From the IMG/VR virus record IMGVR_UViG_3300028571_000063, positions 1 to 34,147 of that record: 34,147 nucleotides of DNA; one strand, 5' to 3'. This document shows, in pieces, positions 1,625 to 34,147 of the stretch; positions within the stretch are counted from its first letter, which is position 1, and each line of letters begins with the position of its first letter. The DNA comes from a virus. A program made the position numbers and the translations under genes. The notes beneath the pieces are model-generated. The model was not told the DNA's origin, did not search any database, and saw only the letters and a list, made by a program, of their open reading frames with translations.

Positions 1625-1723
1625 ATGGAAATGGACGAGGACTATTATAAAATTGCTGAGACAAGAATAAATAACTATGAGTTATATAAAGATTTAATTA
1701 AAAAGAAATGGAAGAAGGATTAA
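1625..1723 (+). pseudogene. Duplicated 3' remnant of first methyltransferase
   Basis: Bases 1625-1709 repeat the 3' end of the first methyltransferase exactly. The frame continues through WKKD to a TAA at 1721-1723, overlapping the start of the next gene (ATG 1708) by 16 bases. This looks like the original end of the first methyltransferase, left behind when the second one entered. It could still be translated as a 32-residue peptide, but I see no reason to expect a function. Confidence 0.7.
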
Positions 1724-2019
1724 AAAACGAAATAATTAGATTAATTAATCTAAAAAAAACAAATAAATATGATGTTCAGAGTATGAGTAATATTATTAGA
1801 GAACATATAGATAAAAAAATGTCTATTTGTTCCCACTGTGCTGCTCAAATTAGATTTGCACAAAAACAATTATTAAATTGGTATAATAGACAAGAAACAA
1901 CAGAAGAAAAAATAACAATATCAGAACCACCACAAAAAGTGGGGTGTCAATCCTGTAAACAGAAAACAACACAAAGTAAAAAAGGTGTTGTGATAAATAC
2001 ACAAAGAACAAAGAAATGA
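1708..2019 (+). CDS. Small zinc-ribbon-like protein upstream of terminase (copy 1)
   Basis: A 103-residue protein. The N-terminal 60 residues are probably helical; CSHC (41-44) and CQSC (80-83) form two CxxC pairs that could bind one zinc ion. The tail is basic (KKGVVINTQRTKK). A close homologue lies at 29647-29958 in the same place before the small terminase, so it belongs to the packaging module. Its stop overlaps the next start (ATGATG), suggesting coupled translation. I do not recognise a named family. A role in packaging or late regulation is a guess from position only. Confidence 0.75.
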   Translation: MEEGLKNEIIRLINLKKTNKYDVQSMSNIIREHIDKKMSICSHCAAQIRFAQKQLLNWYNRQETTEEKITISEPPQKVGCQSCKQKTTQSKKGVVINTQRTKK

Positions 2020-2411
2020 TGGCAAAAAACAAAGGTGGAAGACCCCTAATATGGACTGAAGAAAAAGTTATGAAATTGGGGAATGATTTATTTAACTGGA
2101 TGTTAGAAAGTCAAGACAATATATGGATGGAAACATTTTTATATGAAAATGGTGATATATACCCACAGTTTATTAGTGAAATGTGTATTAAATATCCCAA
2201 GTTTACCGAATTAATAAAAAAGGTAAAAAAAATACAGGAGGGTAAAATAGTAAATGGTGCTTTAAAACACAACCTAAACCCAACGATGTCCATATTTTTA
2301 TTAAAAAATCATCACGGATATAGAGACAAACAAGAACAAGACATCAACCACAAGGGGGAGAATATTGTTATTAATGTTATTAAACCAAATAAAAATAATA
2401 ATGGAGATTAA
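2016..2411 (+). CDS. Terminase small subunit, type A
   Basis: A 131-residue protein immediately before the large terminase and overlapping it by 11 bases. It starts MMAKNKGGRPLIWTEEK, typical of small terminases, and contains NPTMSIFLLKNHHGYRDK, close to a motif common in them. Small terminases recognise the packaging site and pass DNA to the large subunit. Its counterpart at 29958-30371 has a different body, but both share a C-terminal tail (here NIVINVIKPNKNNNGD). Family assignment rests on motif and position. Confidence 0.75.
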   Translation: MMAKNKGGRPLIWTEEKVMKLGNDLFNWMLESQDNIWMETFLYENGDIYPQFISEMCIKYPKFTELIKKVKKIQEGKIVNGALKHNLNPTMSIFLLKNHHGYRDKQEQDINHKGENIVINVIKPNKNNNGD

Positions 2412-3711: not shown

Positions 3712-3729
3712 TGTACAAAACACAACAAT

Positions 3730-3746
3730 AAAAAATATATTTATTA
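3730..3746 (+). promoter_or_regulatory. AT-rich leader motif (late promoter candidate)
   Basis: AAAAAATATATTTATTA lies 20 bases before the next start codon. Near-identical strings precede genes at 10710, 17272, 18706 and 31722. TATATTTA resembles the Bacteroidota -7 element, but I see no TTTG at the usual upstream distance. It is followed by AAAAAAAGGATAAT, a probable ribosome-binding region. Confidence 0.45.
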
Positions 3747-3765
3747 AAAACAAAAAAAGGATAAT

Positions 3766-4356
3766 ATGATAAATTTAAAATTAGAAATTGATGATGAGGT
3801 AAAGGAATTTAATTTACCCCAATCGTGGGATGAAGTTACTATTGGTGATTTTGTTAAATTATTCTCTTTTGAAAGAGAGGGGTTAAATTCAGTAGAGTTA
3901 TCTGTAAAAATAATAAATGTATTGACAGATATTGATGAAAATTTAATTATGATGATGGATGTAAAGGATTTTGAAAAATTGGCTGAAGTATTTGCGTTTA
4001 CAAGTAAAGAATTAAAACCCACCAATGTTGAGAGTGTTGAGTTGGAAGGTGAAACATATTATTTAAAAAATGATTTTTCTAAACTAACAATGGGGGAGGT
4101 TATTAGTATTGAGACGATTTTACAATCAGCAGATGGTAATTTATTTAAAGTGATGGATAAGTTACTATGTATATTTTTGAGAAAGAAAAAAGAAAACGGA
4201 AAGTTAGAAGCCTTCAAAGGTGAATTTATGGATAGGGTTAATTTATTTAGAAATGCCCCAATTTCAAAAGTATATAACATATTCAGTTTTTTTTTAACTG
4301 GCGGGACTACATTAGAGGACAATACGAAGGACTATTTGGAAAGCCTGCCAAAATAA
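3766..4356 (+). CDS. Tail assembly chaperone-like protein, short form (copy 1)
   Basis: A 196-residue, acidic, mostly helical protein (N-terminus MINLKLEIDDEVKEFNLP). I call it gpG-like because its 3' end carries a slippery site in register and the -1 frame continues into a 90-codon extension. That is the hallmark of tail assembly chaperone pairs, which coat the tape measure protein during tail building. The homologue at 31722-32312 has the same length and the same site. Its position straight after the large terminase, over 10 kb before the tape measure gene, is unusual for this role, so another frameshifted structural protein remains possible. Confidence 0.6.
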   Translation: MINLKLEIDDEVKEFNLPQSWDEVTIGDFVKLFSFEREGLNSVELSVKIINVLTDIDENLIMMMDVKDFEKLAEVFAFTSKELKPTNVESVELEGETYYLKNDFSKLTMGEVISIETILQSADGNLFKVMDKLLCIFLRKKKENGKLEAFKGEFMDRVNLFRNAPISKVYNIFSFFLTGGTTLEDNTKDYLESLPK

Positions 4357-4568
4357 AAAAAGAGAAAAAAAGTAAATTTGATACTTTAAATAAAAAGACG
4401 GATGTTGATGATAGATTTAAATGGTTGGAGATGGTTTATTTATTATTAACCAAATTAAATACAACTGATGAAATGATATACAAGAAGAACTATATTGGAT
4501 GTTTGAATTGGTTGTCTTATTTCTATCAAAAAAATAAAGTAGAACAAAGTAAAAACGGCAATATATGA
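3766..4568 (+). CDS. Tail chaperone-like long form by -1 frameshift (copy 1)
   Basis: Tandem slippage on T TTT TTA (4290-4296) moves ribosomes into the -1 frame from 4296, giving NWRDYIRGQYEGLFGKPAKI and continuing 90 codons to TGA at 4566-4568. The fusion would be about 267 residues. The extension has no start codon of its own near its beginning, yet codes for a coherent protein (FKWLEMVYLLLTKLN, NYIGCLNWLSYFYQ) that is conserved in the second copy. Its stop overlaps the next start as ATGA, which supports real translation of this frame. It is equivalent in layout to lambda gpGT. Confidence 0.75.
4290..4296 (+). promoter_or_regulatory. Slippery heptamer T TTT TTA for -1 frameshift
   Basis: Nine T bases (4287-4295) followed by A place T TTT TTA exactly in the zero frame (codons TTT 4291-4293, TTA 4294-4296). 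This is a known efficient slippery heptamer (the HIV-1 type). The sequence around it is unchanged in the second copy at 32246-32252. Confidence 0.8.
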
Positions 4569-6469
4569 GTGTAAATATAATTTCATTAAATCAAATGGTG
4601 GATTTGTTCAGTGGGTTCGCTGACAGACATTTTTTTTTAAATGATTTTGGTTTTGGACCAACAAGTGAAATAGGGACCTCAAGACAAATGGACTTCCCCT
4701 ATATGTGGGTATCATTAAATGAAAATAGTTTAATCAACCCCCAAAATAGAACGGCAATACCAGAGTTGTCTTTTTCTGTTTTATTTATGGATAAGACAAA
4801 TATTCAGTCAAATTATTTGGAAATAAATGGAGATAATAGCGACAACATCCAGGAGATATTGAGTGATATGTTACAAGTCCTACAAGATTTTATAACAGAG
4901 GTTCAGGTAGATTGGGGGAATTATGGTATTATATTTCAAGATGTAATTAATTGTTTCCCTGCAACAGATGAAACACAAGATAAAGTTAATGGATGGGTGG
5001 GACAATTTAGTTTTAAATTAAAACATTCAAATTGTATTTTACCAACCGGCGATATTACACAGACAAACTTATCCCCAATTAACCCTATGACGAGGTATTT
5101 GACTTGTGATACAGTAACCGCTTGCACCACATTACAACAATACATAACTCAACAAATATCAAATTTTACAGGAAACACAGGAACAAGTATTACAGGTTTC
5201 ACATATCAAGATAATACCTTCACAATTACTGATGATAATGGTGGGGTATTTAGTGCCACTATTAATACTATGACTGGACTTACTGTAAATGGTGATATAT
5301 CAGGAACAACTTTTTATGGGGATGGTTCAAATCTTACAGGTATTGTATTTAATGATATCTTCGTAACAGGGGGGACATATGATAACTCAACTGGAACAGC
5401 AACATTCACCAATAATAGTGGGGGGACATTTAACGTAAGTGGTTTTTATACTGGTTCAACTGATAATAACCAATTCGTAACGGGATATACCTATTTAAAT
5501 AATACATTCACTATTGCTGATAATAGTGGTAACACATTCAACGCCACCATCAACACGATGACTGGTTTAACCATCAACGGGAACTTGGATGTAACCACAA
5601 TAGATGATGTTGATTATATTGATTTTAATACATCTGCGGCACAAGCAGGGGATATTGGTAGATTGATATGGAATGATACAGATGGAACATTAAATTTAGG
5701 TTTAAAAGGTGGTAATGTGACATTACAAATAGGACAAGAAGAAGTTGTAAGAGTAGTTAATAAAACTGGTTCAAATTTACTTGAAAGTCAATATAAGGTT
5801 GTTAGAATAAGAACACAAGCAGAAGGTGGGGCACAAGGACAAAGGTTAGCAGTTTTATTAGCACAAGCAGATACTAAACACAACCATTCTGGTATATTGG
5901 GTGTTGTTACTGAAAATATTAACAACAATCAAGAAGGTTTTATTACATCATTTGGTAATGTTAATAACATAAATGCAACAGGTTCACTTCAAGGTGAAAC
6001 TTGGTTAGATGGTGATGACTTATGGTTATCAGATACAGTTGCTGGTGGTTTAACCAATATAGAACCAACAACCCACCCAGTAAGAATTGGTTATGTATTG
6101 TATTCACACGCAGTAAATGGTAAAATATTTGTATCGTTAGATAATGGTGTTGATGAATTAGGTGAATTACACGATGTAACAATTACATCACCAATTGGGG
6201 GTGACACATTACAATATAATTCAACATTATCTGTTTGGGAAAACTCAAATCCATTTTGGACAATCGATTTAATGGATAATTCATCGGTTGAATTTTATGC
6301 TGTTGATGATGTTAAAATAAATACAATAACAAATATTGTTGGTTCCCCAACTATAACTATTGCTGATGATGGAGCACCCTATACATTAACAAATACTATT
6401 TTATCTGGAAGTAAAATAACTGTAACATCTGACATACAAAGTGTTATAAAATTAAATATTGAATACTAA
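4565..6469 (+). CDS. Tail fibre / adhesin with repeated beta modules (copy 1)
   Basis: A 634-residue protein. Residues 1 to about 190 form a distinct N-terminal domain, probably the virion anchor (GFGPTSEIGTSRQM; DWGNYGIIFQD). Next come Gly/Thr/Asn-rich repeats of the form TGxTYxxNTFTIxDNxG...INTMTGLTxNG, typical of trimeric beta-structured fibres. A conserved domain from about residue 378 (LGLKGGNVTLQIGQEEVVRV to about 545, IDELGELHDV-like) is of a type seen in many phage fibre proteins. The start overlaps the stop of the frameshifted frame (ATGA). Likely a host-binding or baseplate fibre. A longer variant lies at 32521. Confidence 0.75.
   Translation: MSVNIISLNQMVDLFSGFADRHFFLNDFGFGPTSEIGTSRQMDFPYMWVSLNENSLINPQNRTAIPELSFSVLFMDKTNIQSNYLEINGDNSDNIQEILSDMLQVLQDFITEVQVDWGNYGIIFQDVINCFPATDETQDKVNGWVGQFSFKLKHSNCILPTGDITQTNLSPINPMTRYLTCDTVTACTTLQQYITQQISNFTGNTGTSITGFTYQDNTFTITDDNGGVFSATINTMTGLTVNGDISGTTFYGDGSNLTGIVFNDIFVTGGTYDNSTGTATFTNNSGGTFNVSGFYTGSTDNNQFVTGYTYLNNTFTIADNSGNTFNATINTMTGLTINGNLDVTTIDDVDYIDFNTSAAQAGDIGRLIWNDTDGTLNLGLKGGNVTLQIGQEEVVRVVNKTGSNLLESQYKVVRIRTQAEGGAQGQRLAVLLAQADTKHNHSGILGVVTENINNNQEGFITSFGNVNNINATGSLQGETWLDGDDLWLSDTVAGGLTNIEPTTHPVRIGYVLYSHAVNGKIFVSLDNGVDELGELHDVTITSPIGGDTLQYNSTLSVWENSNPFWTIDLMDNSSVEFYAVDDVKINTITNIVGSPTITIADDGAPYTLTNTILSGSKITVTSDIQSVIKLNIEY
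5748..5870 (+). repeat. 123-bp stretch identical to the right end of the window
   Basis: Bases 5748-5870 equal 34025-34147, the last 123 bases. The first upstream mismatch is 5747 versus 34024. It lies in the conserved fibre domain (KTGSNLLESQYKVVRIRTQA). Confidence 0.95.
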
Positions 6470-10662: not shown

Positions 10663-10680
10663 CATTAAAAACACATTAAC

Positions 10681-10697
10681 AAAAAATATATTTAATT
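10681..10697 (+). promoter_or_regulatory. AT-rich leader motif (late promoter candidate)
   Basis: AAAAAATATATTTAATT lies between the terminator and the 1236-residue gene, followed by AAAAAAAGGATT and the start codon. Because the previous unit has just terminated, some promoter is needed here, which makes this the best placed member of the motif set. Confidence 0.55.
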
Positions 10698-10709: not shown

Positions 10710-13700
10710 ATGAATAAATTTTCAGTAGTAGCAGATGGTAAACAATTAGATACCTATGATAATATATCAGTAAGTTTTAATTATCAGATAGAAGATATAT
10801 TAGATATTACAAAAAGAACGACCAATTATAGTAAGACAATAACATTACCAGGAACCCCATTTAATAATAAATTCTTCAAACAGATATTTGATGTTAATAT
10901 TGATACAATTACTTTCAATGTAAAAAAATCAATACCAGCATTTATTCAAATTGGGGAACAGAATGTAATGACTGGTGTATTACAACTTTTGAATATTATT
11001 GTTAATCAAAATTCAGTAGATTATGAAATTGTGATAATGGGACAATTAAAGAATATCCTAAATGAATTTGGTGAATTAACAATACGTAATGTTGATTTAA
11101 GTGAATTTAACCACACTCGTTCAAAACAAACTATTCAAAGTAGTTGGAATTATGATATATACAGGAATGGTTCATTAATTAATAATTCAGCAGGTGGACT
11201 TGGTTATGTTTATCCATATATTATATATGGTAATAATCAAGATATTGCTTATAGAATGTATGCAAGTGATTTATTCCCTTCTGTATATGTTAAAACGGTT
11301 ATTGATAAAATGTTTGATTTAGTTGGTTATACATATACATCAAAATTTTTTAATGGGGATTATTTTAGAAAATTAATATTACCATTTGTTGATGATAAAT
11401 TACAATTAACAGATGAAGAAATTAACGAAAGAACTGTAGCAATTGGTGTTGATGGGACACAACCTGAAACAACCGACCCATTACTTTATGAACCAGGAGT
11501 TGAAGATACAAGTGTTACTGGTTATAGAGCAATTAGTCCTGTTATGGAAGATACAATACCCGCTTGGTATCAAGGTAAATATTGGTTTTCAAATAAAGGA
11601 TTTTGGGTTCCATTATCAAAAGAAAGTGGGACAATTATTGATGTTTCATTACAAGATGTAAATAATGAATGGACATTTTCAGCACAAACAACACCATATA
11701 CCTCAGCAAATTCAGTTTTCCCACATACATATTCAAGATATAAGTGTCAAAAATCAGGTTATTATGATATTGACTTAACAGGTTATTTGATTGTTAAGTA
11801 TTGGGATTTAGGTGGTTCACCTAATATTGATTTACAAAGTGGTGATTTAAAATATTATGTAAGATTATATAGAAAAAGGGGTAATAGTGAAATATTATTA
11901 GCAGGACCTCCAGGTGGTAATGAATTATCTTTTACCCCCTCACAATCATTTAATTTTTCACCAGCATATGATAATAATAACCCATTAACATTAGATTTAT
12001 CTGCTTCAAATGTTTATTTAGAAGAAAATGATTTAATATATATTGATTTTGGTATTAGTATGTGGCAAACTAATTGGGATGGTAATGATAGTGATATAAG
12101 ATGTCAGGGATTAGTATTACCATCAAAAGATGATGTCCCTACGGTATTAAAAATTACACCATCAAACAATAATTTGGTTGGGGGTGATAGTGAAATTAAT
12201 ATGAACCAAATATTACCTGATATTAAATTAAAGGATATGTTTTTATCAATAATCAAAATGTTTAATTTGGTTGTGTTTGATAATCCAGAAATACCTAATA
12301 ATTTAATTATTGAACCTCGTGATGAGTTCTATGCCTCAAGACAAAGAGTTTTAGATTGGACAGATAAATTAGATTATAACCAAGATGTTAAAATAACCCC
12401 AATGTCAGAATTGGATGTTAAAACATTTTACTATACATATAAAGAAGATGGTGATTTTTACAATCAACAATATACAACTGAAGTAAAAAGAATATATGGT
12501 GATTATGAAATAGATGTTGAAAATGATTTTTCTGAAATTCAAAATAAATTGGAAGTTATTTTTTCCCCAACACCTGATGGACAATATGGTATTGGTGATA
12601 GAGTTGCACCTTTATTTTGTTCAATTGAAGATAATATCTTAAAACCAAAAAAGTTAAAACCAAGAATATTGTTTTATGGGGGTTTAAAACCTACAAGTTA
12701 TCCAATATTATTCAAAGATACATATGATAGTGCCACAGGGGTTACAATTAATAATTATGCGTATTGTGGAATGTGGGACGACCCATACCAACCTCAACAC
12801 GATTTAGGTTTTGGAACAACAAATAAAGTATATTGGAATGGTATAAATTATTATCCAACAAATACATTGGTTGAACAATTCCATAAAAATTCACTATTAG
12901 ATATTATTGATATTAATAGTAAATTATTGGAGGCAGATTTTCATTTAACACCAAAAGATATTGCTGATTTAGATTTTAGGGATATTATCTTAATAGATAA
13001 TGCTTATTGGAGAATTAACAAGGTAAAGGATTATAACCCAATTGGAACTGATAAAACAACTTCTGTTGTTCTATATAAAATAAATAACATTAATATCTTT
13101 GCCCCAGATAGAGTTGAGATATCATTAGCAAATAAAACTTGTCCAACTGATGTTGTTAAAAAATTTAGTTATTTAGGTTCATATTATGTTTCAGCATCAG
13201 GACAAATATTAGATGCAAATTGTTGTTCATCTTTAAATGGTGATTTTATTGGTGGTAAATGTTGGGTAAGAACAAGATTGGAAGGACAAAAAGGTGAAAA
13301 AGATGGATTTTTAAAGACATCAAATACCGTTATTCAAGGTGGTAGTGATATGACACCAAATCCACAAGACAGACCCGAAACATTAATGTCTGGTAATAAT
13401 ACAATTAATAGTCCAGGTATTATTGTTAGGGGACAATCAAATTATGTTGATTATAATGTAAAATCTGTAGAAATACTTGGGGATAATAATAGTATTATGA
13501 ATGGTTCAACCTCAAATCAAATAATGGGGAATGGAAATACAATTACAAACGACACAACAAACTCATTTATCTTTGGTGATAATAACTCTATTGAAATTGA
13601 TTTCTTGAACACAGGTTCAACCGCAAACACACTTTCTAATATATTCTTGATTGGTAATAATATGATTGCTTCATCAGGTAATACATTATATGCCGACAAT

Positions 13701-14420
13701 ATACAAATGTCATCAGGTTCAACATTTAATGGTATTCCAACTTCATTAGTTACAAACCCCACATTAAGTGATGTATTAACTAATGGTAATACAACAGGAC
13801 CTAATTTTATTGATGTAGATAGTGGATATGGATTACAAGCAATAGATACTATTAATAATATAACAGATACTGTATCACTTGACCCAGAAGGATTATTAAA
13901 TGGAACAGGTATATTTTCAACTGATGGGACTGATATTGGACAAATATTAATAGATAAAACAACAGTAAGTCTTGAAACAAATGATGGTAGTGGTTATGCT
14001 GCGGCTAGTTTCAAAACAAGTCCATCATACCAATTCGCTGTTGAAGTAACAGATGCAACTGATACAACAACTGAAACAATAACTGCAACACAATGGTTAG
14101 CACAGACAACTGATGGTGTTAATTATCAAGGTACAATAACAAATTTATACAGTTCTGGTGGGGGTTTTATTAGAATTTTAATGGAAACAAAAAATCTTGC
14201 AGGGATTGCCACTGGTACTGTAATTCTAAATACAGATTTAATTACAGACGAAAGTGAATTTCAAGTTGATACCGATAAAATTAAATTTAATAACACACCA
14301 GCATTTGCTGATGATGCTGCAGCTACCACTGCTGGTTTACTTCCAGGAGATGTTTACCAAACAGACGGAACGGGAGCAGCCCCACTAAACGTTGCAGGTA
14401 TTCTAATGATAAAACAATAA
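10710..14420 (+). CDS. Giant tail/baseplate protein with C-terminal beta-helix fibre
   Basis: A 1236-residue protein. The N-terminus (SVSFNYQIEDILDITKRTTN, NYSKTITLPGTPFNNKFFKQ) is a signature I associate with large baseplate or tail-tip proteins of Bacteroidota phages. The body to about residue 800 contains domains such as DWTDKLDYNQDVKITPMSEL. Residues about 890-1000 form a repetitive array (GNNTINSPGIIV, GDNNSIMNGSTSNQIMGNGN, GDNNSIEID, GNNMI) like a left-handed beta-roll/helix. The extreme C-terminus (AGLLPGDVYQTDGTGAAPLN) resembles a fibre tip domain. It likely combines a baseplate anchor with a host-contact tip. It precedes the tape measure gene. Confidence 0.7.
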   Translation: MNKFSVVADGKQLDTYDNISVSFNYQIEDILDITKRTTNYSKTITLPGTPFNNKFFKQIFDVNIDTITFNVKKSIPAFIQIGEQNVMTGVLQLLNIIVNQNSVDYEIVIMGQLKNILNEFGELTIRNVDLSEFNHTRSKQTIQSSWNYDIYRNGSLINNSAGGLGYVYPYIIYGNNQDIAYRMYASDLFPSVYVKTVIDKMFDLVGYTYTSKFFNGDYFRKLILPFVDDKLQLTDEEINERTVAIGVDGTQPETTDPLLYEPGVEDTSVTGYRAISPVMEDTIPAWYQGKYWFSNKGFWVPLSKESGTIIDVSLQDVNNEWTFSAQTTPYTSANSVFPHTYSRYKCQKSGYYDIDLTGYLIVKYWDLGGSPNIDLQSGDLKYYVRLYRKRGNSEILLAGPPGGNELSFTPSQSFNFSPAYDNNNPLTLDLSASNVYLEENDLIYIDFGISMWQTNWDGNDSDIRCQGLVLPSKDDVPTVLKITPSNNNLVGGDSEINMNQILPDIKLKDMFLSIIKMFNLVVFDNPEIPNNLIIEPRDEFYASRQRVLDWTDKLDYNQDVKITPMSELDVKTFYYTYKEDGDFYNQQYTTEVKRIYGDYEIDVENDFSEIQNKLEVIFSPTPDGQYGIGDRVAPLFCSIEDNILKPKKLKPRILFYGGLKPTSYPILFKDTYDSATGVTINNYAYCGMWDDPYQPQHDLGFGTTNKVYWNGINYYPTNTLVEQFHKNSLLDIIDINSKLLEADFHLTPKDIADLDFRDIILIDNAYWRINKVKDYNPIGTDKTTSVVLYKINNINIFAPDRVEISLANKTCPTDVVKKFSYLGSYYVSASGQILDANCCSSLNGDFIGGKCWVRTRLEGQKGEKDGFLKTSNTVIQGGSDMTPNPQDRPETLMSGNNTINSPGIIVRGQSNYVDYNVKSVEILGDNNSIMNGSTSNQIMGNGNTITNDTTNSFIFGDNNSIEIDFLNTGSTANTLSNIFLIGNNMIASSGNTLYADNIQMSSGSTFNGIPTSLVTNPTLSDVLTNGNTTGPNFIDVDSGYGLQAIDTINNITDTVSLDPEGLLNGTGIFSTDGTDIGQILIDKTTVSLETNDGSGYAAASFKTSPSYQFAVEVTDATDTTTETITATQWLAQTTDGVNYQGTITNLYSSGGGFIRILMETKNLAGIATGTVILNTDLITDESEFQVDTDKIKFNNTPAFADDAAATTAGLLPGDVYQTDGTGAAPLNVAGILMIKQ

Positions 14421-14442
14421 TAAAAATAAAATATTTAATAGT

Positions 14443-17235: not shown

Positions 17236-17252
17236 ACCATTAAACGAACTAT

Positions 17253-17268
17253 AAAAAATATATTTATA
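17253..17268 (+). promoter_or_regulatory. AT-rich leader motif (late promoter candidate)
   Basis: AAAAAATATATTTATA ends four bases before the protease start. If TATATTTA were a -7 element, the transcript would begin at or very near the ATG. The motif may instead act in translation initiation. Confidence 0.4.
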
Positions 17269-18659: not shown

Positions 18660-18682
18660 AATTCATTAAACACAATAAAAAT

Positions 18683-18693
18683 AAATATATTTA
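18683..18693 (+). promoter_or_regulatory. AT-rich leader motif (late promoter candidate)
   Basis: AAATATATTTA lies 13 bases before the scaffold gene start. The context ATTAAACACAATAAAA upstream resembles the sequence before the motif at 10681. Confidence 0.4.
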
Positions 18694-21044: not shown

Positions 21045-21071
21045 CCCCCTCCGTTCTGGTGGGGGTTTTTT
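21045..21071 (+). terminator. Terminator after the tail tube candidate
   Basis: CCCCC (21045-21049) pairs with GGGGG (21061-21065); an inner CC/GG pair extends it across a T-T mismatch. Six T bases follow. Confidence 0.8.
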
Positions 21072-21094
21072 ATATTCTAAACAAAAACAACATT

Positions 21095-21108
21095 ACAATA
21101 TTTAATTA
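21095..21108 (+). promoter_or_regulatory. AT-rich leader motif before portal unit (promoter candidate)
   Basis: ACAATATTTAATTA lies 9 bases before ATG 21118, just after a terminator. It is a weaker variant of the motif at 10681 and is almost the same as TTAATATTTAATTA at 28827. Confidence 0.4.
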
Positions 21109-25381: not shown

Positions 25382-25582
25382 TTATTCATCTACATTTTTT
25401 TTACTATTTTTTCTAACTTTTTTTGTAACTGCTTCTAATTTATCAACCTTTTCGTGTAAATCCATTATTACATTCAATAAGTAAATATATACCAATTTAT
25501 CGTTGGGGCAAGTATCTTCACTTGCTATTACTTGCATTACATCTGTAAATGTAATATTGATTAAATTTTGTTCGTTTTCCAT
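25382..25582 (-). CDS. Small hypothetical protein (66 residues)
   Basis: MENEQNLINITFTDVMQVIA at the start, then KLVYIYLLNVIMDLHEKVDK and a basic tail KKVRKNSKKNVDE. It is predicted helical, possibly with a short coiled coil (MDLHEKVDKLEAVTKKV). There is no signal or membrane segment. It is the last gene of the minus-strand group and has its own upstream promoter-like sequence (25616-25646) with a palindromic element. Function unknown. Confidence 0.6.
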   Translation of the reverse strand: MENEQNLINITFTDVMQVIASEDTCPNDKLVYIYLLNVIMDLHEKVDKLEAVTKKVRKNSKKNVDE

Positions 25583-25615: not shown

Positions 25616-25646
25616 ATAAATATCACGGACTTTTGAAAAAGTCACT
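25616..25646 (-). promoter_or_regulatory. Promoter candidate with palindrome (minus strand)
   Basis: On the minus strand AGTGACTTTTTCAAAAGT is followed by CCGTGATATTTAT. It is closely related to the sequence before the lipoprotein gene. GATATTTA approximates the Bacteroidota -7 element at a suitable distance from a -33-like GTGAC. GACTTTT-GA-AAAAGTC (25628-25643 on plus) is a perfect 7-bp inverted repeat that could be an operator. Confidence 0.5.
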
Positions 25647-25662: not shown

Positions 25663-25926
25663 TTAATTTATTGTACATTCATCATTTCTCCACTTAACCG
25701 CTTCTAACCATTTTTGTTCTAAAATTGATATATTATTATATAGTTCGGCTTGTTCCAATTCCTCAATTCCATTTGGTGAACTTTGTGCTGAAAAAAGATT
25801 GTCATAAGCAATATTAATTTCATTTTCTATTCTTATAACTTCTAATGTTGCTTCTTTACAATATTCTTTTTTATGACAAGATGTTATTGTAATTAATAAA
25901 ATTGATAGTGTTAAAATTGTTTTCAT
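25663..25926 (-). CDS. Small lipoprotein
   Basis: An 87-residue protein. MKTILTLSILLITITSCHKK is a lipoprotein signal with lipobox ITSC, so the mature protein would start at Cys17 and be lipid-anchored. The mature part is acidic and helical (EATLEVIRIENEINIAYDNL), with two further Cys residues. Small phage lipoproteins act as outer-membrane spanin subunits or as superinfection exclusion proteins. Here it lies outside the lysis region and in the operon-like group with the sigma factor under an early-type promoter, which favours exclusion or a host-altering role. This is inference. Confidence 0.75.
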   Translation of the reverse strand: MKTILTLSILLITITSCHKKEYCKEATLEVIRIENEINIAYDNLFSAQSSPNGIEELEQAELYNNISILEQKWLEAVKWRNDECTIN

Positions 25927-25945: not shown

Positions 25946-25977
25946 ATAAATATCAATAAATTTTGAAAAAGTCAAAT
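25946..25977 (-). promoter_or_regulatory. Promoter candidate for lipoprotein gene (minus strand)
   Basis: On the minus strand TTTGACTTTTTCAAAA precedes TTTATTGATATTTAT. TTTG, an 18-base spacer and GATATTTA fit the Bacteroidota pattern TTTG/TAnnTTTG fairly well. About 24 of 31 positions match the element at 25616-25646. Confidence 0.55.
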
Positions 25978-25991: not shown

Positions 25992-26669
25992 TTAATTTAT
26001 TTTTAATAACCCCTCTATTCGTTGAAGAATTATTTTATTTTTTTTAATTTTACCAATAATTTCTCTACTTATTTCTGATGCTCTTTGTTTGGTAAATCCA
26101 TTTTTTTCACCTATTTGAGTGTAATTAATTTTTTCATTAAAAATGTAATCTAAAAATACTTGAACTTTTTTATATTTCATATTTGGAATAGTCATTAATA
26201 AATCTTCTAGTTCCTGTCTTGAAATATTACTTTCAAAATAAACATCACTTTCATCTTGATAATCAAAGTTTGTTAAATCTTCTATATTGTATGTCTTTGG
26301 GTAACTATCTATTGTTTCTTGTGAAACATATTTAACTTTATTACCAGGTATTCTAATTAAATTTTTTACATCTCTAAAATATTCAAGTATTGCATAATTA
26401 ATATAATTTCTACAAGCAGTAATTATTGTAGCATTTTTATTAATATCAAATTTAGTTATACCTTTCATTAATCCTTCATTACCTATTGAAATTAATTCAT
26501 CAAAATCATATATCATACTATATTTACTAGCAATATTAATTACCAATGGTAGAAGAGAATTAACTAATTCATCAATTTTATTTTCATTATATAATTTAAT
26601 TAATTCTTCATTACTTAATTTCTTATATTTTTTTCTTACTTCTTTTTTATATCTGTATGTGTTTTCCAT
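25992..26669 (-). CDS. Phage-encoded sigma-70-family factor
   Basis: A 225-residue protein. Region 2 spans about 33-100: LVNSLLPLVINIASKYSMIY, DFDELISIGNEGLMKGITKF, then a 2.3/2.4-like helix ACRNYINYAILEYFRD. A short region 3-like IRIPGNKVKY follows. Region 4 near 160-210 has a helix-turn-helix, YTQIGEKNGFTKQRASEISR. Region 1.1 is absent. It should redirect host RNA polymerase to phage promoters, and the recurring AATATATTTA leaders are the obvious candidates. Its own leader contains AAATATATATAATAAAGGAT, similar to the leaders of late genes. It lies on the minus strand, divergent from the nuclease operon. Confidence 0.8.
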   Translation of the reverse strand: MENTYRYKKEVRKKYKKLSNEELIKLYNENKIDELVNSLLPLVINIASKYSMIYDFDELISIGNEGLMKGITKFDINKNATIITACRNYINYAILEYFRDVKNLIRIPGNKVKYVSQETIDSYPKTYNIEDLTNFDYQDESDVYFESNISRQELEDLLMTIPNMKYKKVQVFLDYIFNEKINYTQIGEKNGFTKQRASEISREIIGKIKKNKIILQRIEGLLKIN

Positions 26670-26739
26670 ATTATCCTTTATTATATATATTTATTTTTAT
26701 TATTTGTTTTTATTATATATTAATATCAACTATTTTGGG

Positions 26740-26803
26740 GGTGATAAAAAATAAGTCATACCCCCCTACCCCCCTAGAATGAAGATATGACTTACTTATC
26801 ACC
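26740..26803. repeat. Long inverted repeat enclosing C tracts
   Basis: Left arm GGTGATAA...TAAGTCATA (26740-26760) and right arm TATGACTTACTTATCACC (26786-26803) are reverse complements apart from three extra A in the left arm. The 25-base loop carries CCCCCCTACCCCCC (26761-26774). A G run (26737-26741) just outside could pair with a C tract in an alternative fold. There is no T run after it, so it is not a standard terminator. Confidence 0.75.
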
Positions 26804-27065
26804 AATTTATTAATTAACTATTTTGTGTGGCTGTTAGTGGTTACAAGTCTTAGAAAAACCAATCTAACATTTAAGATAATATTTACCAATTAACATTTAA
26901 TCTGTCCTAAGCCATCGGTTACACTTCATCCCTTCATCGTCTAGGTAAACTCTCAACGATTACATATATAAATATATTGAAGTTTAGCAAAAGACTAAAT
27001 AATTAAAAAAAAATTAAAATATTTTTATAAAATCACTTAATTAGAAAAAAAAATGAATAAGTAAA

Positions 27066-27100
27066 GTGTTTTTTTAACTTTTAATGATATTTATTATTAA
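27066..27100 (+). promoter_or_regulatory. Promoter candidate for nuclease operon
   Basis: GTGTTTTTTTAACTTTTAAT is followed by GATATTTATTATTAA and the ATG at 27110. The GATATTTATTA core is shared with the two minus-strand promoter candidates at 25616 and 25946. Confidence 0.45.
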
Positions 27101-27109: not shown

Positions 27110-27595
27110 ATGGGAAATAAAAAATGGTTAAATGATTTATCAGAAGGTAACAAAGGTGAACGAGTAGTTGCCGAACACTTCACAAGAAAATATCGTCTTA
27201 CAGACATTAAATTCAATGATGACTATAGATACGACTTCAAAGGAATTAGAAGTGGGGAAACAATCTCTTTTGAGGTTAAAACAGATAGATATGAATACTT
27301 CAAGGGACATAAAACATTTAATATGTTTATTGAAATTTCTTGTAGTGGAAATCCGTCAGGTATATCAAATTCACAAGCAGATAATTTTGTATATTATTAC
27401 CCCGATTTAGAACAAGCATTTATAATTCCCATGGCAAAATTAAGATTATTGGTAATGACTAATAATTTACAACTCACAGAACAATCTGGTGATGGGGGTA
27501 GAGTTCAGGGATATTTGGTTCATAGAAACTTATTTAAAGAGTGGTTTAATATAATCACAATAAAAAAAGATGAAAATATTTGGGTGGATAAATGA
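27110..27595 (+). CDS. PD-(D/E)XK-like nuclease
   Basis: A 161-residue protein. The N-terminal helix contains EGNKGERVVAEHF (candidate first acidic residue). YRYDFKG, then GETISFEVKTDRYEYFKG supply the D...ExK catalytic pattern, and SGNPSGISNSQADNFVYYYP lies after it. This order matches small PD-(D/E)XK enzymes such as phage resolvases or VRR-like endonucleases. It might cut branched or host DNA. It is first in a plus-strand operon that ends with a sigma-like protein. Fold assignment is fairly good; substrate is unknown. Confidence 0.65.
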   Translation: MGNKKWLNDLSEGNKGERVVAEHFTRKYRLTDIKFNDDYRYDFKGIRSGETISFEVKTDRYEYFKGHKTFNMFIEISCSGNPSGISNSQADNFVYYYPDLEQAFIIPMAKLRLLVMTNNLQLTEQSGDGGRVQGYLVHRNLFKEWFNIITIKKDENIWVDK

Positions 27596-27636
27596 CTTTT
27601 GCTAAAATCCAAGATATTTATATATAAATAAAGAAA

Positions 27637-27843
27637 ATGAATAGAATTTTAATGTCGTTGGAATTAATGGAAAATACAACAGAGGGGTATTTGATGGTTT
27701 ATAAAGGAACTAAATACGAAGTAACATATAAAGTTATAACTGATAAGATAAGACATCGTTTAAACGAACCTATGACATTAGATACATTAATAGAATTATA
27801 CGAAGAAATACCAAACTTCATAAAAGAACAAAAAAATAAATAA
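27637..27843 (+). CDS. Small hypothetical protein (68 residues)
   Basis: MNRILMSLELMENTTEGYLM at the start, then VYKGTKYEVTYKVITDKIRH and a helical end TLDTLIELYEEIPNFIKEQK. No recognised motif. A GATATTTATATATAAATAAA string (27613-27632) lies just upstream and might be a promoter. It stands one base before the next start, so it is part of an operon. Methionines at residues 6 and 11 are other possible starts. Confidence 0.55.
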   Translation: MNRILMSLELMENTTEGYLMVYKGTKYEVTYKVITDKIRHRLNEPMTLDTLIELYEEIPNFIKEQKNK

Positions 27844-27844
27844 G

Positions 27845-28219
27845 ATGGGATGTAATTTAACAGAACAAATACAAAATCAGTCACACCAAGACGTAATGAA
27901 AAATATAAAAGAATATAATGATGAACTTGAATTATCATTCCAACAATACACAGAGTATGAAGATATTGACGGAATAACAGAGGAAGAATATATAATTATG
28001 GAACAAGAAAATTTCTACACTATATTGGGGACGACATCAGCCCTCTTATTTGTTTATAATGAATTGGAAAAATACGAACAATCATCAGAATTATATACAG
28101 AAATGAAAAGGGGATTTTTAATGATATATGATAGAATATTTCCGTACACCGATAACGAAGAAAAATTCCGTGATTTAATGAATAAAACGTTTGAGACATT
28201 AAAAACAATCTATAAATGA
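27845..28219 (+). CDS. Acidic hypothetical protein (124 residues)
   Basis: A helical, acidic protein (NDELELSFQQYTEYEDIDGI, TEEEYIIMEQENFYTILGTT, RGFLMIYDRIFPYTDNEEKF). There is no signal peptide or clear membrane helix; TTSALLFVYNEL is weakly hydrophobic. It starts directly after the previous gene, and its stop overlaps the start of the sigma-like gene as ATGA. The tight coupling suggests it works with, or regulates, that protein. An anti-sigma role would be speculation. Confidence 0.55.
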   Translation: MGCNLTEQIQNQSHQDVMKNIKEYNDELELSFQQYTEYEDIDGITEEEYIIMEQENFYTILGTTSALLFVYNELEKYEQSSELYTEMKRGFLMIYDRIFPYTDNEEKFRDLMNKTFETLKTIYK

Positions 28220-28728
28220 TTAATGACATATTAAAACAAATAACAACACCTGGTAGTATCTATGATGAAATTATAGACAATATCATCCAACCAAGATTTG
28301 ACTTAAAACCAGAATTAATAAGTGAAATAGCAATATCATTTTTAGAAAATAGAGTAAAGGTTGAAGAAGCATATGAAAAAAACTACTTCAAATATTATTT
28401 TATCAATACCGTAAAAAATCAAATACACTCTAAAACCTCATCGTTTCATAAAAATGTAAGAATAAAAGATAATGAGTATTTTGAAAACTACGGGAATATG
28501 CAAGATGATACCACAATTGAAGAAAAGATTGAGTTTGAGGAACGATTAGAATTAATTAATAACTTATATATGAAAACAAAAAAGAGTTGGTTTGAAGCAA
28601 CATTATGGGATGAATACTTTATTAAAAATAAAACATACAGAGAAATAGGGAGTGAATATTCAATTAACCATTGTCTAGTATTTCACAATGTGGATAAATT
28701 AAAAAAAGAGATACGAAAAAAACTATAA
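28216..28728 (+). CDS. Sigma-like / HTH transcription regulator
   Basis: A 170-residue protein. The C-terminal part (about 120-170) reads SWFEATLWDEYFIKNKTYRE, then EIGSEYSINHCLVFHNVDKL and a basic end KKEIRKKL. This is a sigma-70 region 4-type helix-turn-helix (hydrophobic helix, YREIG turn, recognition helix). The N-terminal part (EEAYEKNYFKYYFINTVKNQ) may be a diverged region 2. Proteins of this type precede terminase genes in other Bacteroidota phages as I recall, and could be late activators. The following strong terminator and new leader at 28827 place it just before a late-type unit. Confidence 0.6.
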   Translation: MINDILKQITTPGSIYDEIIDNIIQPRFDLKPELISEIAISFLENRVKVEEAYEKNYFKYYFINTVKNQIHSKTSSFHKNVRIKDNEYFENYGNMQDDTTIEEKIEFEERLELINNLYMKTKKSWFEATLWDEYFIKNKTYREIGSEYSINHCLVFHNVDKLKKEIRKKL

Positions 28729-28764
28729 TTTTTACTTAGGACTATTACAGTTATGGTAATGTTG

Positions 28765-28798: not shown

Positions 28799-28826
28799 AT
28801 GTCCAAATTAAAACAAGATAGGGTGT

Positions 28827-28840
28827 TTAATATTTAATTA
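28827..28840 (+). promoter_or_regulatory. Leader motif before second packaging unit (promoter candidate)
   Basis: TTAATATTTAATTA lies between the terminator and the gene at 28869. It is nearly identical to the motif at 21095, which also follows a terminator. Confidence 0.4.
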
Positions 28841-29631: not shown

Positions 29632-29646
29632 TATTAAAAAAATAAT

Positions 29647-29958
29647 ATGGAAGAAGGATTAAAAAATGAAGTGATTAGGTTAATCAATCTAAAAAAAACC
29701 AATAAATATGATGTTCAAAGTATGACTAACATAATCAGAGAACATATAGATAAAAGAATGTCCATTTGTTCTCATTGTGCAGCACAGATAAGATTTGCAC
29801 AAAAACAATTATTAAATTGGTATAACTCACAACAACCCACAGAAGAAATAAAACTACCAGAACCACCACCAGTAAAAGTTGGATGTCAGAGTTGTAAACA
29901 GAAGACAACACAACCTAAAAAAGGTGTGGTGATAAATACCCCCAAATCTAAAAAATAA
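29647..29958 (+). CDS. Small zinc-ribbon-like protein upstream of terminase (copy 2)
   Basis: The 103-residue homologue of the protein at 1708-2019, nearly identical through the first 60 residues. Both CxxC pairs (CSHC, CQSC) and the KKGVVINT tail are preserved, while the linker between them varies (here Pro-rich, KLPEPPPVKVG). Conservation of the cysteines in two diverged copies supports metal binding. Its last base overlaps the start of the small terminase (TAATG). Confidence 0.75.
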   Translation: MEEGLKNEVIRLINLKKTNKYDVQSMTNIIREHIDKRMSICSHCAAQIRFAQKQLLNWYNSQQPTEEIKLPEPPPVKVGCQSCKQKTTQPKKGVVINTPKSKK

Positions 29959-30371
29959 TGATTTACAAAACAAATTTTCAAAAAAAGAAACTCGTTGTTG
30001 ATGAGGCATTCCGTAATGGGTTTAATTGGACAAGAGCATATATGACTATAATGGGGGTTGAAAAACCTGATATGGCTAAAAGAGCAGTTTACAAGATGAA
30101 ACAATCTAAAGAGGTTGAAGATTATATCACCTTCAAAGAAAGTGAAATACAATTAAAATATGATATTGATAAGGATAAGATTATTCGTGAGTTGGTGGAT
30201 TTAATTGATGATTGTAAGACTGAAACTTCAACTGATAGACAAAATTTGATTAAAGGGTTGGATATGTTAAATAAAATGTTTGGTTATTATACACCTGAAA
30301 AACACGAACATAAACACGAGGGTATTACAATCAATATTATTAAACCAAATAAAGATACAGATGGAAATTAA
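29958..30371 (+). CDS. Terminase small subunit, type B
   Basis: A 137-residue protein. The N-terminal half (KKKLVVDEAFRNGFNWTRAY, then GVEKPDMAKRAVYKMKQ) is a helix-turn-helix of the Terminase_2 kind, and KYDIDKDKIIRELVDLIDDC supplies the oligomerisation helix. It bears little resemblance to the small subunit at 2016-2411 except for the C-terminal tail GITINIIKPNKDTDGN. It overlaps the large subunit start by 11 bases, as in copy 1. It should recognise a different packaging site from copy 1. Confidence 0.8.
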   Translation: MIYKTNFQKKKLVVDEAFRNGFNWTRAYMTIMGVEKPDMAKRAVYKMKQSKEVEDYITFKESEIQLKYDIDKDKIIRELVDLIDDCKTETSTDRQNLIKGLDMLNKMFGYYTPEKHEHKHEGITINIIKPNKDTDGN

Positions 30372-31674
30372 CTTTACCCCATCATTAAAACAAGATTTAA
30401 TATTTGAATATTTTGATGATGAAAAAACAACTGAAGTATTATATGGTGGGGCTGCTGCTGGTGGTAAATCGTATGGAGCAAGTGCTCTTGCTGTAATAAA
30501 ATGTCTACAATATTCAAATATTCGTGTAGGTTTAGCAAGAAATGAACTAACAACATTGAAAAAAACAACTGTTGTATCCCTATTTGAGGTAATAAATAAT
30601 TGGGGATTGAAGGTTGATGAACATTATAAGTATAACTCCACAAGTGGTGAAATAACATTTACAAATGGTTCAAAGATAGTTTTATTAGAATTAAGATATT
30701 TACCATCAGACCCCAATTATACAAGATTGGGCGGACAATTATTGACTTTTGGTATAATTGATGAGGCAGGTGAGGTAGATGAAAAAGGAAAACAGATATT
30801 CCAATCACGTCTTGGTAGATGGTTAAATGGTGAATTATTAATCAAACCCTTCTTACTGATGACTTGTAATCCATCTAAAAACTTCTTGTATAGGGACTTT
30901 TATATTCCAAGTCAAGACAATACACTACCCGAACATAAAAAGTTTATCACAGCACTTGTATTAGACAACCCATTCATTACAGATGTATATGTTTATAACC
31001 TACATAAGACATTATCCAATTCAGATAAGGAAAGATTGATAAATGGTAATTGGGATTATGATGACGACCCAAATACTCTTATGGATTATGAAACGATATT
31101 AAGAATATTCACAGATAAAAAACCTGATGTTGAAAAACCCACTTATTATATTAGTGCGGATATTGCATTCACAAGTGATAATGCAGTGATTATGGTGTGG
31201 GAAAATCTAACATTAGTAGACATTATAGTAAATCCAGAAGGGAAAATAGAAGATGTAATTAAAGATAAGGCAAAAGAATATAAAGTATTCCCCAATAATA
31301 TCAGTTATGATAGTGATGGTGTGGGGAAATATTTAATGAATTATCTAAAATCAGCAAAACCTATTGTAAATAATGCGAAACCATTAAAGGATGAAAACTA
31401 CGAAAACCTAAAAACACAATTATATTTTAAACTTGCTGAGGTAATTAACAAGGGGGAATTAAAAGTATTAAATACAAAATATCAAGATAAAATTATTGAA
31501 GAACTACAACAGGTTAAACACCGTCCAACAGACAGAGTAGGTAAAATAGCTATGGTTCAAAAAGGTGATGTAAAACGAATGTTAGGACGTTCCCCAGACT
31601 TTAGTGACGCAATGGCATATAGGATGGTATTTGAAATTAAAGTTGGTGTAACCAAGACATTTCGTATAATGTAA
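30361..31674 (+). CDS. terL: Terminase large subunit (copy 2)
   Basis: 437 residues from ATG 30361 (MEINFTPSLKQDLIFEYF). Walker A GGAAAGGKSYG, Walker B IIDEAGEVDE, TCNP, and nuclease residues ISADIAF, YDSDGVG and FSDAMAYRM are all intact. It aligns with copy 1 over its whole length with scattered substitutions and many synonymous changes, so it is a diverged homologue under purifying selection rather than a recent duplicate or an assembly copy. Confidence 0.95.
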   Translation: MEINFTPSLKQDLIFEYFDDEKTTEVLYGGAAAGGKSYGASALAVIKCLQYSNIRVGLARNELTTLKKTTVVSLFEVINNWGLKVDEHYKYNSTSGEITFTNGSKIVLLELRYLPSDPNYTRLGGQLLTFGIIDEAGEVDEKGKQIFQSRLGRWLNGELLIKPFLLMTCNPSKNFLYRDFYIPSQDNTLPEHKKFITALVLDNPFITDVYVYNLHKTLSNSDKERLINGNWDYDDDPNTLMDYETILRIFTDKKPDVEKPTYYISADIAFTSDNAVIMVWENLTLVDIIVNPEGKIEDVIKDKAKEYKVFPNNISYDSDGVGKYLMNYLKSAKPIVNNAKPLKDENYENLKTQLYFKLAEVINKGELKVLNTKYQDKIIEELQQVKHRPTDRVGKIAMVQKGDVKRMLGRSPDFSDAMAYRMVFEIKVGVTKTFRIM

Positions 31675-31691
31675 TTTAAAAACATAAAGAT

Positions 31692-31708
31692 AAAAAATAT
31701 ATTTATTA
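31692..31708 (+). promoter_or_regulatory. AT-rich leader motif (copy 2)
   Basis: AAAAAATATATTTATTA is the same 17-base string as at 3730, although the surrounding intergenic bases have changed between the copies. It is followed by AAAAAAAAAAGGAT and the start codon. Confidence 0.5.
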
Positions 31709-31721
31709 AAAAAAAAAGGAT

Positions 31722-32312
31722 ATGATAAAAATAAATTTAGAAATTGACGATGAGGTAAAAGAATATTCTTTACCCGAAAGTTGGGATGAACTTACCATTG
31801 GTGATTTTGTTAAGTTATTTTCATTTAATAGGGATGGTTTAACAAGAGTAGAATTATATGTAAAGATAATAAATATCTTAACAGATATTGATGAGGAATT
31901 GGTTATGATGATGAATGTTGAAGATTTTGAAAAATTGATGGAAGTATTTAAATTTACAACAAAAGAATTAGAGGCGATTAATGTTGAAAGTATTGAATTA
32001 GAAGGTGAGGTATATTATTTAAAAAGTGACTTTTCCCAACTTACGATGGGGGAAGTAATTAGTATTGAAACAATATTACAATCAGCGGATGGTAATTTAT
32101 TCAAAGTAATGGATAAGTTATTGTGTATATTTTTAAGAAAGAAAAAAGAAAATGGAAATTTAGAAGCATTCAAAGGTGAATTTATGAATAGGGTTAGTAT
32201 ATTTCAAAAAGCCCCAATCACAAAAGTTTATAACTTATTCAGTTTTTTTTTAACTGGCGGGACTACATTAGAGGACAATACGAAGGACTATTTGGAAAAC
32301 CCGCCAAAATAA
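31722..32312 (+). CDS. Tail assembly chaperone-like protein, short form (copy 2)
   Basis: A 196-residue protein of the same length as copy 1, with substitutions spread through it (for example EYSLPESWDELTIGDFVKLF). The 3' end, where two frames overlap, is almost unchanged. Role as in copy 1: the gpG-like product of a frameshift pair. Confidence 0.6.
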   Translation: MIKINLEIDDEVKEYSLPESWDELTIGDFVKLFSFNRDGLTRVELYVKIINILTDIDEELVMMMNVEDFEKLMEVFKFTTKELEAINVESIELEGEVYYLKSDFSQLTMGEVISIETILQSADGNLFKVMDKLLCIFLRKKKENGNLEAFKGEFMNRVSIFQKAPITKVYNLFSFFLTGGTTLEDNTKDYLENPPK

Positions 32313-32524
32313 AAAAAGAAAAGAAAAGTAAATTTGATACTTTAAATAAAAAGACAGAAGTAGATGATAGATTTAAATGGTTAGAAATGGTTTATACATT
32401 ACTAACAAAATTAAATACAACTGATGAAAAAATATATGAGAAGAATTATATTGGATGTTTAAATTGGATGTCCTATTTCTATCAAAAAAATAAAGTAGAA
32501 CAAAGTAAAAACGGTAGTTTATGA
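31722..32524 (+). CDS. Tail chaperone-like long form by -1 frameshift (copy 2)
   Basis: The same T TTT TTA site (32246-32252) leads into NWRDYIRGQYEGLFGKPAKI in the -1 frame and on to TGA at 32522-32524, again 90 codons and about 267 residues in total. The extension differs from copy 1 by amino-acid substitutions only, without indels or stops. That shows the frame is translated. The stop overlaps the fibre start as ATGA. Confidence 0.75.
32246..32252 (+). promoter_or_regulatory. Slippery heptamer T TTT TTA (copy 2)
   Basis: Nine T bases (32243-32251) then A, in the same register as copy 1. Confidence 0.8.
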
Positions 32525-34147
32525 GTAGTGTAAATATAATTAGTTTAAATCAAGTAGTTGACTTATTTGAGAATTTCTCAGAAAGACATTACTTCTTAAA
32601 CGATTTTGGTTTTGGACCAACAAGTGAAATAGGGACTTCAAGACAAATGAATTTCCCCTATATGTGGGTTTCATTAAATGAAAATAGTGTAATCAATCCA
32701 CAAAATAGAACCGCAATACCTGAATTGTCTTTTTCTGTGTTATTTATGGATAAGACAAATATTCAATCAAATTATCTAAATATCAATGGTAATAATAGTG
32801 ACAATGTCCAAGAGATATTGAGTGATATGTTACAAGTCCTACAAGATTTTATTACAGAGGTTCAGGTAGATTGGGGTAATTATGGTATTATATTTCAAGA
32901 TACTATTAGTTGTTTCCCCGCAACAGATGAAACACAAGATAAAGTTAATGGATGGGTGGGACAATTTAGTTTCAAATTAAAACATTCAAATTGTATTCTA
33001 CCAACGGGTGATATTGCACAGACAAACTTATCCCCAATTAACCCTATGACGAGATATTTAACTTGTGATACGGTAACTGCTTGTACAACGTTACAACAAT
33101 ATATTGCACAACAAGTATCAGGTAACACAGGAACACTTATAACAGGTTTTACATATCAAGATAATACATTTACAATATCTGATGATAATGGTGGGGTATT
33201 TAGTGCTACTATTAATACTATGACTGGACTTACAGTTAATGGTGATATATCAGGAACTACATTCTATGGGGATGGTTCAAATCTTACTGGTATCATATCA
33301 ACAGATACTTATGTTACAGGTGGAACATATAATAATTCAACAGGTACTGCAACATTTACAAATAATAGTGGTGGTACGTTTAATGTTACTAATTTCTTTA
33401 CTGGGTATACCTTTATAGATGAAAACACGACAACACCTTATTTTGATATTATAATCCCAAGTGGATTTGAAACCTCATCATTTAATATAACCCCAAGTAA
33501 TATTACAATAGAAAATAATGACGCAGCAACATTAGAAAATTCCCAAATATATTTAGATAATGGAACAATACAATTTATATGTGATGATGGTATTAACACT
33601 AATACAATTGAAATAAACCCATTTGGTATTATTGGGGTTCCTTATGTTGTAAGTGGGGTATATAATAATTCAACAGGAACTGCGACATTAACAACAGCAA
33701 CAGGAACACAAATACCTATAACAGGATTTACAACTGGTTCAACGAATACTTTTGTCACAGGATTTACAAATAATAACAACGTGTTCACTATTTCGGATAA
33801 TGGTGGACAATCTTATTCAACAACATTAAATACTTTAACTGGATTAACAATAAATGGTAATTTAGATGTAACCACAATTGATGAGGTTGATACAATAGAT
33901 TTTAATTTAACCGCAACAACAACAGATGCCATAGGACGACTTAAATGGAATGATACAGATGGTACATTAGATTTAGGTTTAAAAGGTGGTGATGTGACAT
34001 TACAAATAGGACAAGAAGAAGTTATAAGAGTAGTTAATAAAACTGGTTCAAATTTACTTGAAAGTCAATATAAGGTTGTTAGAATAAGAACACAAGCAGA
34101 AGGTGGGGCACAAGGACAAAGGTTAGCAGTTTTATTAGCACAAGCAG
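32521..34147 (+). CDS. Tail fibre / adhesin (copy 2, 3' end outside window)
   Basis: Open to the window edge (542 codons seen). The N-terminal 190 residues match copy 1 closely (GFGPTSEIGTSRQM, DWGNYGIIFQD). The repeat region is longer: after the GTATFTNNSGGTFNV segment an extra stretch of about 90 residues (33390-33660; FETSSFNITPSNITIENNDA, NGTIQFICDDGINTNTIEIN) has no counterpart in copy 1. The frame then rejoins the conserved GLKGGDVTLQIGQEEVIRVV domain. This is a fibre variant made by gain or loss of repeat modules between conserved ends. Confidence 0.8.
   Translation, partial: MSSVNIISLNQVVDLFENFSERHYFLNDFGFGPTSEIGTSRQMNFPYMWVSLNENSVINPQNRTAIPELSFSVLFMDKTNIQSNYLNINGNNSDNVQEILSDMLQVLQDFITEVQVDWGNYGIIFQDTISCFPATDETQDKVNGWVGQFSFKLKHSNCILPTGDIAQTNLSPINPMTRYLTCDTVTACTTLQQYIAQQVSGNTGTLITGFTYQDNTFTISDDNGGVFSATINTMTGLTVNGDISGTTFYGDGSNLTGIISTDTYVTGGTYNNSTGTATFTNNSGGTFNVTNFFTGYTFIDENTTTPYFDIIIPSGFETSSFNITPSNITIENNDAATLENSQIYLDNGTIQFICDDGINTNTIEINPFGIIGVPYVVSGVYNNSTGTATLTTATGTQIPITGFTTGSTNTFVTGFTNNNNVFTISDNGGQSYSTTLNTLTGLTINGNLDVTTIDEVDTIDFNLTATTTDAIGRLKWNDTDGTLDLGLKGGDVTLQIGQEEVIRVVNKTGSNLLESQYKVVRIRTQAEGGAQGQRLAVLLAQA
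34025..34147 (+). repeat. 123-bp right-end stretch identical to 5748-5870
   Basis: The last 123 bases of the window are identical to part of the first fibre gene, whereas sequence just to the left has scattered differences. Confidence 0.95.

Follow-up and report, generated by a model that had tools for sequence, protein, structure and literature searches.

The late genes of a small uncultured phage are preceded by a two-box element, AAACA-N14-ATATTTA, and the sequence evidence strongly supports its prediction as a dedicated late promoter. We propose that it belongs to a two-step programme in which a short ECF-like sigma factor of the phage (P0002), acting with the host polymerase, is probably the protein that reads it. 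The window, i.e., the whole stretch of DNA analysed, comes from IMG/VR, where it is a virus record of 34,147 bp; its GC content is 30%.

Two versions of a terminase module with about 83% identity are present at 1700-5870 and 29638-34147. Since the contig ends in 123 nt that match 5748-5870 exactly, two strains were most likely joined in the assembly, rather than the module being duplicated. The simplest reading is most likely a circle of 28,277 bp (5871-34147) plus an arm of the second strain (1-5747). An exact end repeat of the same length, 123 nt, is found in a related genome of 28,132 bp (G003), which is therefore probably a complete circle. The major capsid protein, used as a scan query, yielded 28 related loci, the larger contigs being taken whole. 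No relatives of the capsid protein or of P0001, a sigma-70-type protein of the window, were found among named phages by tblastn, P0002 and capsid profiles scanned against genome contigs for host identity gave no match, and a literature search for promoters of this phage group found no paper. The left end of the window also carries an exact 85-nt direct repeat (743-827 and 1625-1709) around a DNA methyltransferase gene (830-1609), as if a cassette had been inserted, and an internal tandem duplication of about 280 nt, 85% identical (16-551), within a second methyltransferase ORF (62-829).

The first-pass annotation had noticed leaders with AAAAAATATATTTA or close variants before several genes and suggested a dedicated late promoter. 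These leaders are the downstream part of the two-box element. Among 54 non-redundant related phage contigs (739 kb, including 687 kb of coding sequence), in which spacers of 3 to 32 nt were compared, AAACA and ATATTTA occur 106 times in non-coding DNA at a spacer of 14 nt versus 0-6 times at each other spacer, whereas dinucleotide-shuffled non-coding DNA contains a mean of 0.3 copies (maximum 2 in 200 shuffles). The element is far from equally frequent inside genes, with 5 copies per 687 kb of coding sequence. Similarly, the core string AAATATATTTA is found 30 times in 31 kb of non-coding versus twice in 405 kb of coding DNA in the window and the relatives from the capsid scan. Against a shuffled background the loose string is unenriched (14 occurrences of AAAAAATATATTTA at two mismatches versus 11.8 in shuffles), but its exact form is enriched (4 non-coding copies versus 0.012 expected), as is the two-box element, with 6 copies versus 0.02 expected in the non-coding segments of the window as cut for the shuffle test. 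Direct listing gives 7 exact copies in the window, all before late genes. A matrix trained without the window recovers 8 window sites at ≥9 bits, of which 7 precede late genes and the eighth, weaker, precedes the P0001 gene (Table 1); at this threshold it finds no site in coding sequence. As expected of late promoters, the sites of the late genes lie 5' of structural genes, downstream of the early region and outside coding sequence.

The leaders described earlier were recovered in the window with AAAAAATATATTTA exact at 3730, 10681, 17253 and 31692 and with one mismatch at 18680. Those called weaker, before genes 14443, 21118 and 28869, are present but not weak, as all three are full two-box matches, and the site before 28869 sits further upstream, at 28811-28836. 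The deviating member of that list is instead the site before 17272, where relatives carry the same combination of AAACG and a 13-nt spacer. Several leaders had been placed directly after terminators, and genes 10710, 21118 and 28869 do follow hairpin/T-run terminators. A 17-base string had also been reported as identical in both module copies; the string is common to both, but it is 23 bases long, and the copies most likely being two strains, it would represent conservation across strains. Separately, a conserved A-rich leader with AAACA and without ATATTTA, also present in relatives, precedes the capsid gene (19474) and the next gene (20483), and possibly serves as a translation signal.

The same leaders could in principle be A-rich translation-initiation sequences or AT-rich chance matches, given that A-rich starts occur in Bacteroidota-type mRNAs and that the loose 14-mer is unenriched at two mismatches. 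We reject this explanation, whose probability is minimal, on the fixed spacing, the shuffles and the contrast of coding and non-coding DNA. Indeed, the boxes hold their 14-nt mutual spacing while the distance from ATATTTA to the ATG varies over 1-33 nt, which rules out a signal anchored on the start codon; the median distance is 13 nt, and a group of sites clusters at exactly 5 nt. A purine is present 6 nt 3' of ATATTTA in 105/106 sites and fits a transcription start site, which is plausible because the -7 box of Flavobacterium psychrophilum is placed at -12 to -5, in a species where leaderless mRNAs amount to 5.5% (PMC9723704). If transcription starts at this purine, leaders would mostly be 0 to about 10 nt long; a near-leaderless transcript is predicted for gene 14443, as its -10 box ends 5 nt from the ATG.

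The first-pass annotation attributed the late promoters to P0001, described as a complete sigma-70-family protein with regions 2 and 4. Its ORF is complete, and it matches the PHROG 351 family "RNA polymerase sigma factor" over residues 7-210 (E 2e-16) and solved SigA/RpoD chains across region 2 (residues 31-116, E 2e-7), the Pfam Sigma70_r2 match being just under the cut-off. Region 4 is indicated only by the PHROG span to residue 210 and by the fold match of a low-confidence model (pLDDT 66), with no Pfam region 4 match. On its sequence P0001 is thus a genuine sigma-70 relative; its gene lies in the early region and has a weak late-type promoter of its own, which is compatible with feedback. 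However, we consider it very unlikely as the reader of the late promoters. Homologues are present in related genomes G001, G004, G005, G007 and G008, and G012 has a remote one. They are absent from G002, G003, G009 and G010, which nonetheless have 4, 8, 4 and 6 exact late promoters, respectively, with a consensus identical to that of genomes encoding P0001. A single-sequence scan of viral contigs found no P0001 relatives and an own-profile scan of IMG/VR with the P0001 family only 4 contigs, versus 56 related loci for P0002. Moreover, P0001 identity between genomes drops to 36-47% while the promoter is unchanged. P0001 was therefore set aside as the leading reader, being absent from relatives that keep the promoter while P0002 is present throughout. 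Profile comparison found no direct homology between the two proteins (probability 5%), and we propose that P0001 is a second, lineage-specific factor.

The gene of P0002, previously unannotated as a sigma factor, closes the rightward early operon and is followed by a terminator and then by the first late promoter. Nearly every contig that encodes a close relative of P0002 also has the two-box promoter. The AF2 model of P0002 (pLDDT 86, pTM 0.46) shows two helical domains joined by a disordered linker (84-96), which corresponds to the ECF layout of sigma-2, linker and sigma-4 without regions 1 and 3. Nearly all of its top PDB matches by Foldseek are sigma factors, with ECF-type sigma-E and AlgU first (E 0.07, prob 0.95); the ECF matches mostly span both domains, and no PDB match reaches E ≤ 0.001. 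The C-terminal domain superimposes on region 4 of sigma-E bound to -35 DNA (TMt 0.71, 2.1 Å). Among viral predicted structures, 7 matches at E ≤ 0.001 are all without named function, and annotated phage sigma factors are lower in the list. By sequence, 20/36 P0002 family members match the PHROG sigma family phrog_1740 (best 1e-5; P0002 itself E 0.54) and 4 match Sigma70_r4 (best 0.003), while P0002 itself has no Pfam family. Although the Foldseek E-values are weak and known sigma factors are only marginally similar in sequence, the model leads us to infer an ECF-type fold. The promoter agrees in part: AAC, typical of ECF -35 elements (PMC4153023), is contained in the AAACA of the 106 sites and in the AACGA of G012, whereas the -10 boxes ATATTTA, CTGTTTTA and ATATAT(A/T)A lack the CGT of ECF -10 elements, a rule that is general rather than strict. 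For want of CGT, we call P0002 ECF-like and do not place it in a named ECF group. No anti-sigma partner gene was identified.

Three more distant genomes (G011, G012 and G013) have related capsids (53-63%), but their P0002 homologues are remote (E 1e-7 to 1e-10). The exact element is absent from them, and the spacer of 14 is kept while one box differs, the -10 in G011 (AAACA-N14-ATATAT(A/T)A, 4 non-coding and 1 coding copies) and G013 (AAACA-N14-CTGTTTTA, 6 on the plus strand and 0 coding), and the -35 in G012 (AACGA-N14-ATATTTA, 3 non-coding and 1 coding). The variant -10 boxes were picked after inspection, which does not apply to AAACA at exactly 14 nt, and these are single genomes with few sites each, whose hosts may differ too. 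A constant spacer with one box altered alongside a diverged P0002 favors a phage factor reading both boxes over the host sigma factor aided by a phage activator, as in T4 MotA/AsiA. Such an activator, perhaps P0002 itself, would bind AAACA in place of the -33 box and leave the -10 box to the host. This arrangement is unlikely in our view, despite the fact that the late and early promoter classes share ATATTTA and differ only in their upstream box, and that ATATTTA is one base off the flavobacterial -7 box TAnnTTTG (PMC9723704), a consensus that may not be the host's. Indeed, P0002 is predicted to have both sigma-2-like and sigma-4-like domains, and an unchanged host sigma factor does not explain the altered -10 boxes of G013 and G011 at the same spacing, a point that is not decisive.

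A second promoter class has ATATTTAT without AAACA; most of its sites carry TTG(N)CTTTT where AAACA would be. Its five window sites (three minus, two plus) flank only the early region, and such sites occur alike in relatives with and without P0001. The sequence of this class looks host-type (TTG + TAnnTTT). It resembles the Bacteroidota sigma-A promoter (-7 TAnnTTTG) in its TTG box and in a similarly placed -7 box like TATATTTA; it differs by an extra conserved CTTTT, and both phage classes have A where the Bacteroidota -7 box ends in G. A sigma-70 consensus scan was uninformative for the window (116 found versus 121 in shuffles). P0001 was considered as the early-class reader and not favored, the early site of G010, which lacks P0001, being almost identical to those of genomes that have it. 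Between the divergent early operons, a conserved structured RNA, transcribed from a predicted early promoter, ends in a long hairpin whose loop is rich in G. Among its 16 distinct sequences, 11/24 pairs changed on both sides (45 cells versus 17 in shuffles); its DNA is 82% identical to that of G007, where the neighboring sigma protein is 45% identical, and no Rfam match was found.

Table 1. Predicted promoters, proteins and RNA elements of the window.
Feature	Position	Strand	Remarks
Late promoter before 3766, on the arm of the second strain	3718..3743	+	Two-box element exact
Late promoter before 10710, directly past a terminator	10669..10694	+	Exact
Late promoter before 14443	14412..14437	+	Exact; -10 box ends 5 nt 5' of the ATG
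Variant late promoter before 17272	17238..17266	+	AAACG-N13-ATATTTA
Late promoter before 18706	18668..18693	+	Exact
Late promoter before 21118, past terminator 21048-21065	21079..21104	+	Exact
Early-class promoter before 25382-25582	25617..25645	-	TTGNCTTTT-type with ATATTTAT
Early-class promoter before 25663-25926	25947..25975	-	
P0001, sigma-70-type factor, proposed as lineage-specific	25992..26669	-	Complete ORF, 225 aa
Weak late-type promoter of the P0001 gene	26684..26709	-	AAACA-N14-ATATATA; held-out score 16.7 bits
Conserved structured early RNA between divergent early operons	26731..26963	-	Transcribed from predicted early promoter
Early-class promoter of leader RNA and P0001 operon	26969..26997	-	
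Weak early-class promoter before 27110 (site also listed as 27087)	27065..27093	+	9.3 bits
Early-class promoter before 27637 (site also listed as 27614)	27592..27620	+	
P0002, ECF-like two-domain sigma factor, proposed late-promoter reader	28216..28728	+	Last gene of early operon
Terminator following P0002	28767..28791	+	GC hairpin and T-run, read directly in the sequence
First late promoter, before 28869, past the P0002 gene and terminator	28811..28836	+	Exact
Late promoter before 31722	31680..31705	+	Exact

In the programme that we propose, the phage would have a circular map of about 28.3 kb. Its early genes, on either side of the divergent region at 25.4-28.7 kb, would start from the TTG(N)CTTTT box and ATATTTAT, probably through the main sigma factor of the host. 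The final gene of the rightward early operon would provide the small ECF-like sigma factor, which would join the host RNA polymerase and read AAACA-N14-ATATTTA(T), its region 4 contacting AAACA, with the ECF-typical AAC, and its region 2 the -10 box. Late promoters, several of them just past terminators, would then drive the packaging, head and tail genes.

In some relatives a second factor may act besides P0002, since genomes without P0001 often carry another sigma-like early gene (G003 647-1372, G009 11987-12673, L088 7302-7967, G002 27646-28485 and G010 27934-28737); a variable second factor may therefore be common. The genes of G003 and G009 are the clear cases and match phrog_1740. A region-2 motif of the KGYxFIxxRN type is conserved among these sigma-like genes, those of G002, G010 and L088 carrying a similar motif, and the G002 gene also has a weak match to an HNH endonuclease family.

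More broadly, the chances are about even that P0002 represents a new ECF-like phage sigma clade without a Pfam model, which switches on late transcription throughout a group of small uncultured phages, and that in this clade the -10 specificity was rewritten at least two times while the spacer of 14 and AAACA (AACGA in one relative) were kept, and late mRNAs are nearly leaderless. If so, a single short gene and a single promoter of strict spacing would define how a widespread group of uncultured phages turns to late expression, and relatives with altered -10 or -35 boxes would offer natural sigma-promoter pairs for testing the evolution of specificity. In metagenomic members of the group, late genes and transcription units could then be predicted directly from the promoter, which together with P0002 would also be a candidate for an orthogonal sigma/promoter pair usable in AT-rich hosts.

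P0002 resembles bacterial ECF sigma factors (sigma-E, AlgU, SigW) in the two helical domains and linker of its model, in the region-4 fold match and in the AAC of the -35 box, and differs from them by its very low sequence similarity, the lack of a Pfam family and a -10 box without CGT. Phage ECF-type sigma factors for middle and late genes are already known: phiEco32, 7-11 and Kuravirus-type phages encode ECF-family members (PMC7881722), and that of phiEco32 directs middle and late genes with the host polymerase, with late promoters before structural genes and host promoters for early genes (PMC4331800). What is new here is the unrelated phage group and the two-box promoter. A phage ECF-type sigma factor with late promoters before structural genes, proposed here from sequence alone, recalls phiEco32, but phiEco32 uses a single 9-bp box, TAATGTATA, as opposed to AAACA and ATATTTA at fixed spacing, and the present genome is much smaller (about 28 kb), with no anti-sigma gene identified. 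Phage T4 also redirects the host polymerase by its own factors, gp55 and MotA/AsiA, as is proposed here. T4 late promoters, read by gp55, consist only of TATAAATA without a -35 box, and in T4 MotA promoters the upstream box alone is replaced. The late promoters described here have, instead of such a single box, two boxes at fixed spacing, and among distant relatives it is the upstream box that varies least.
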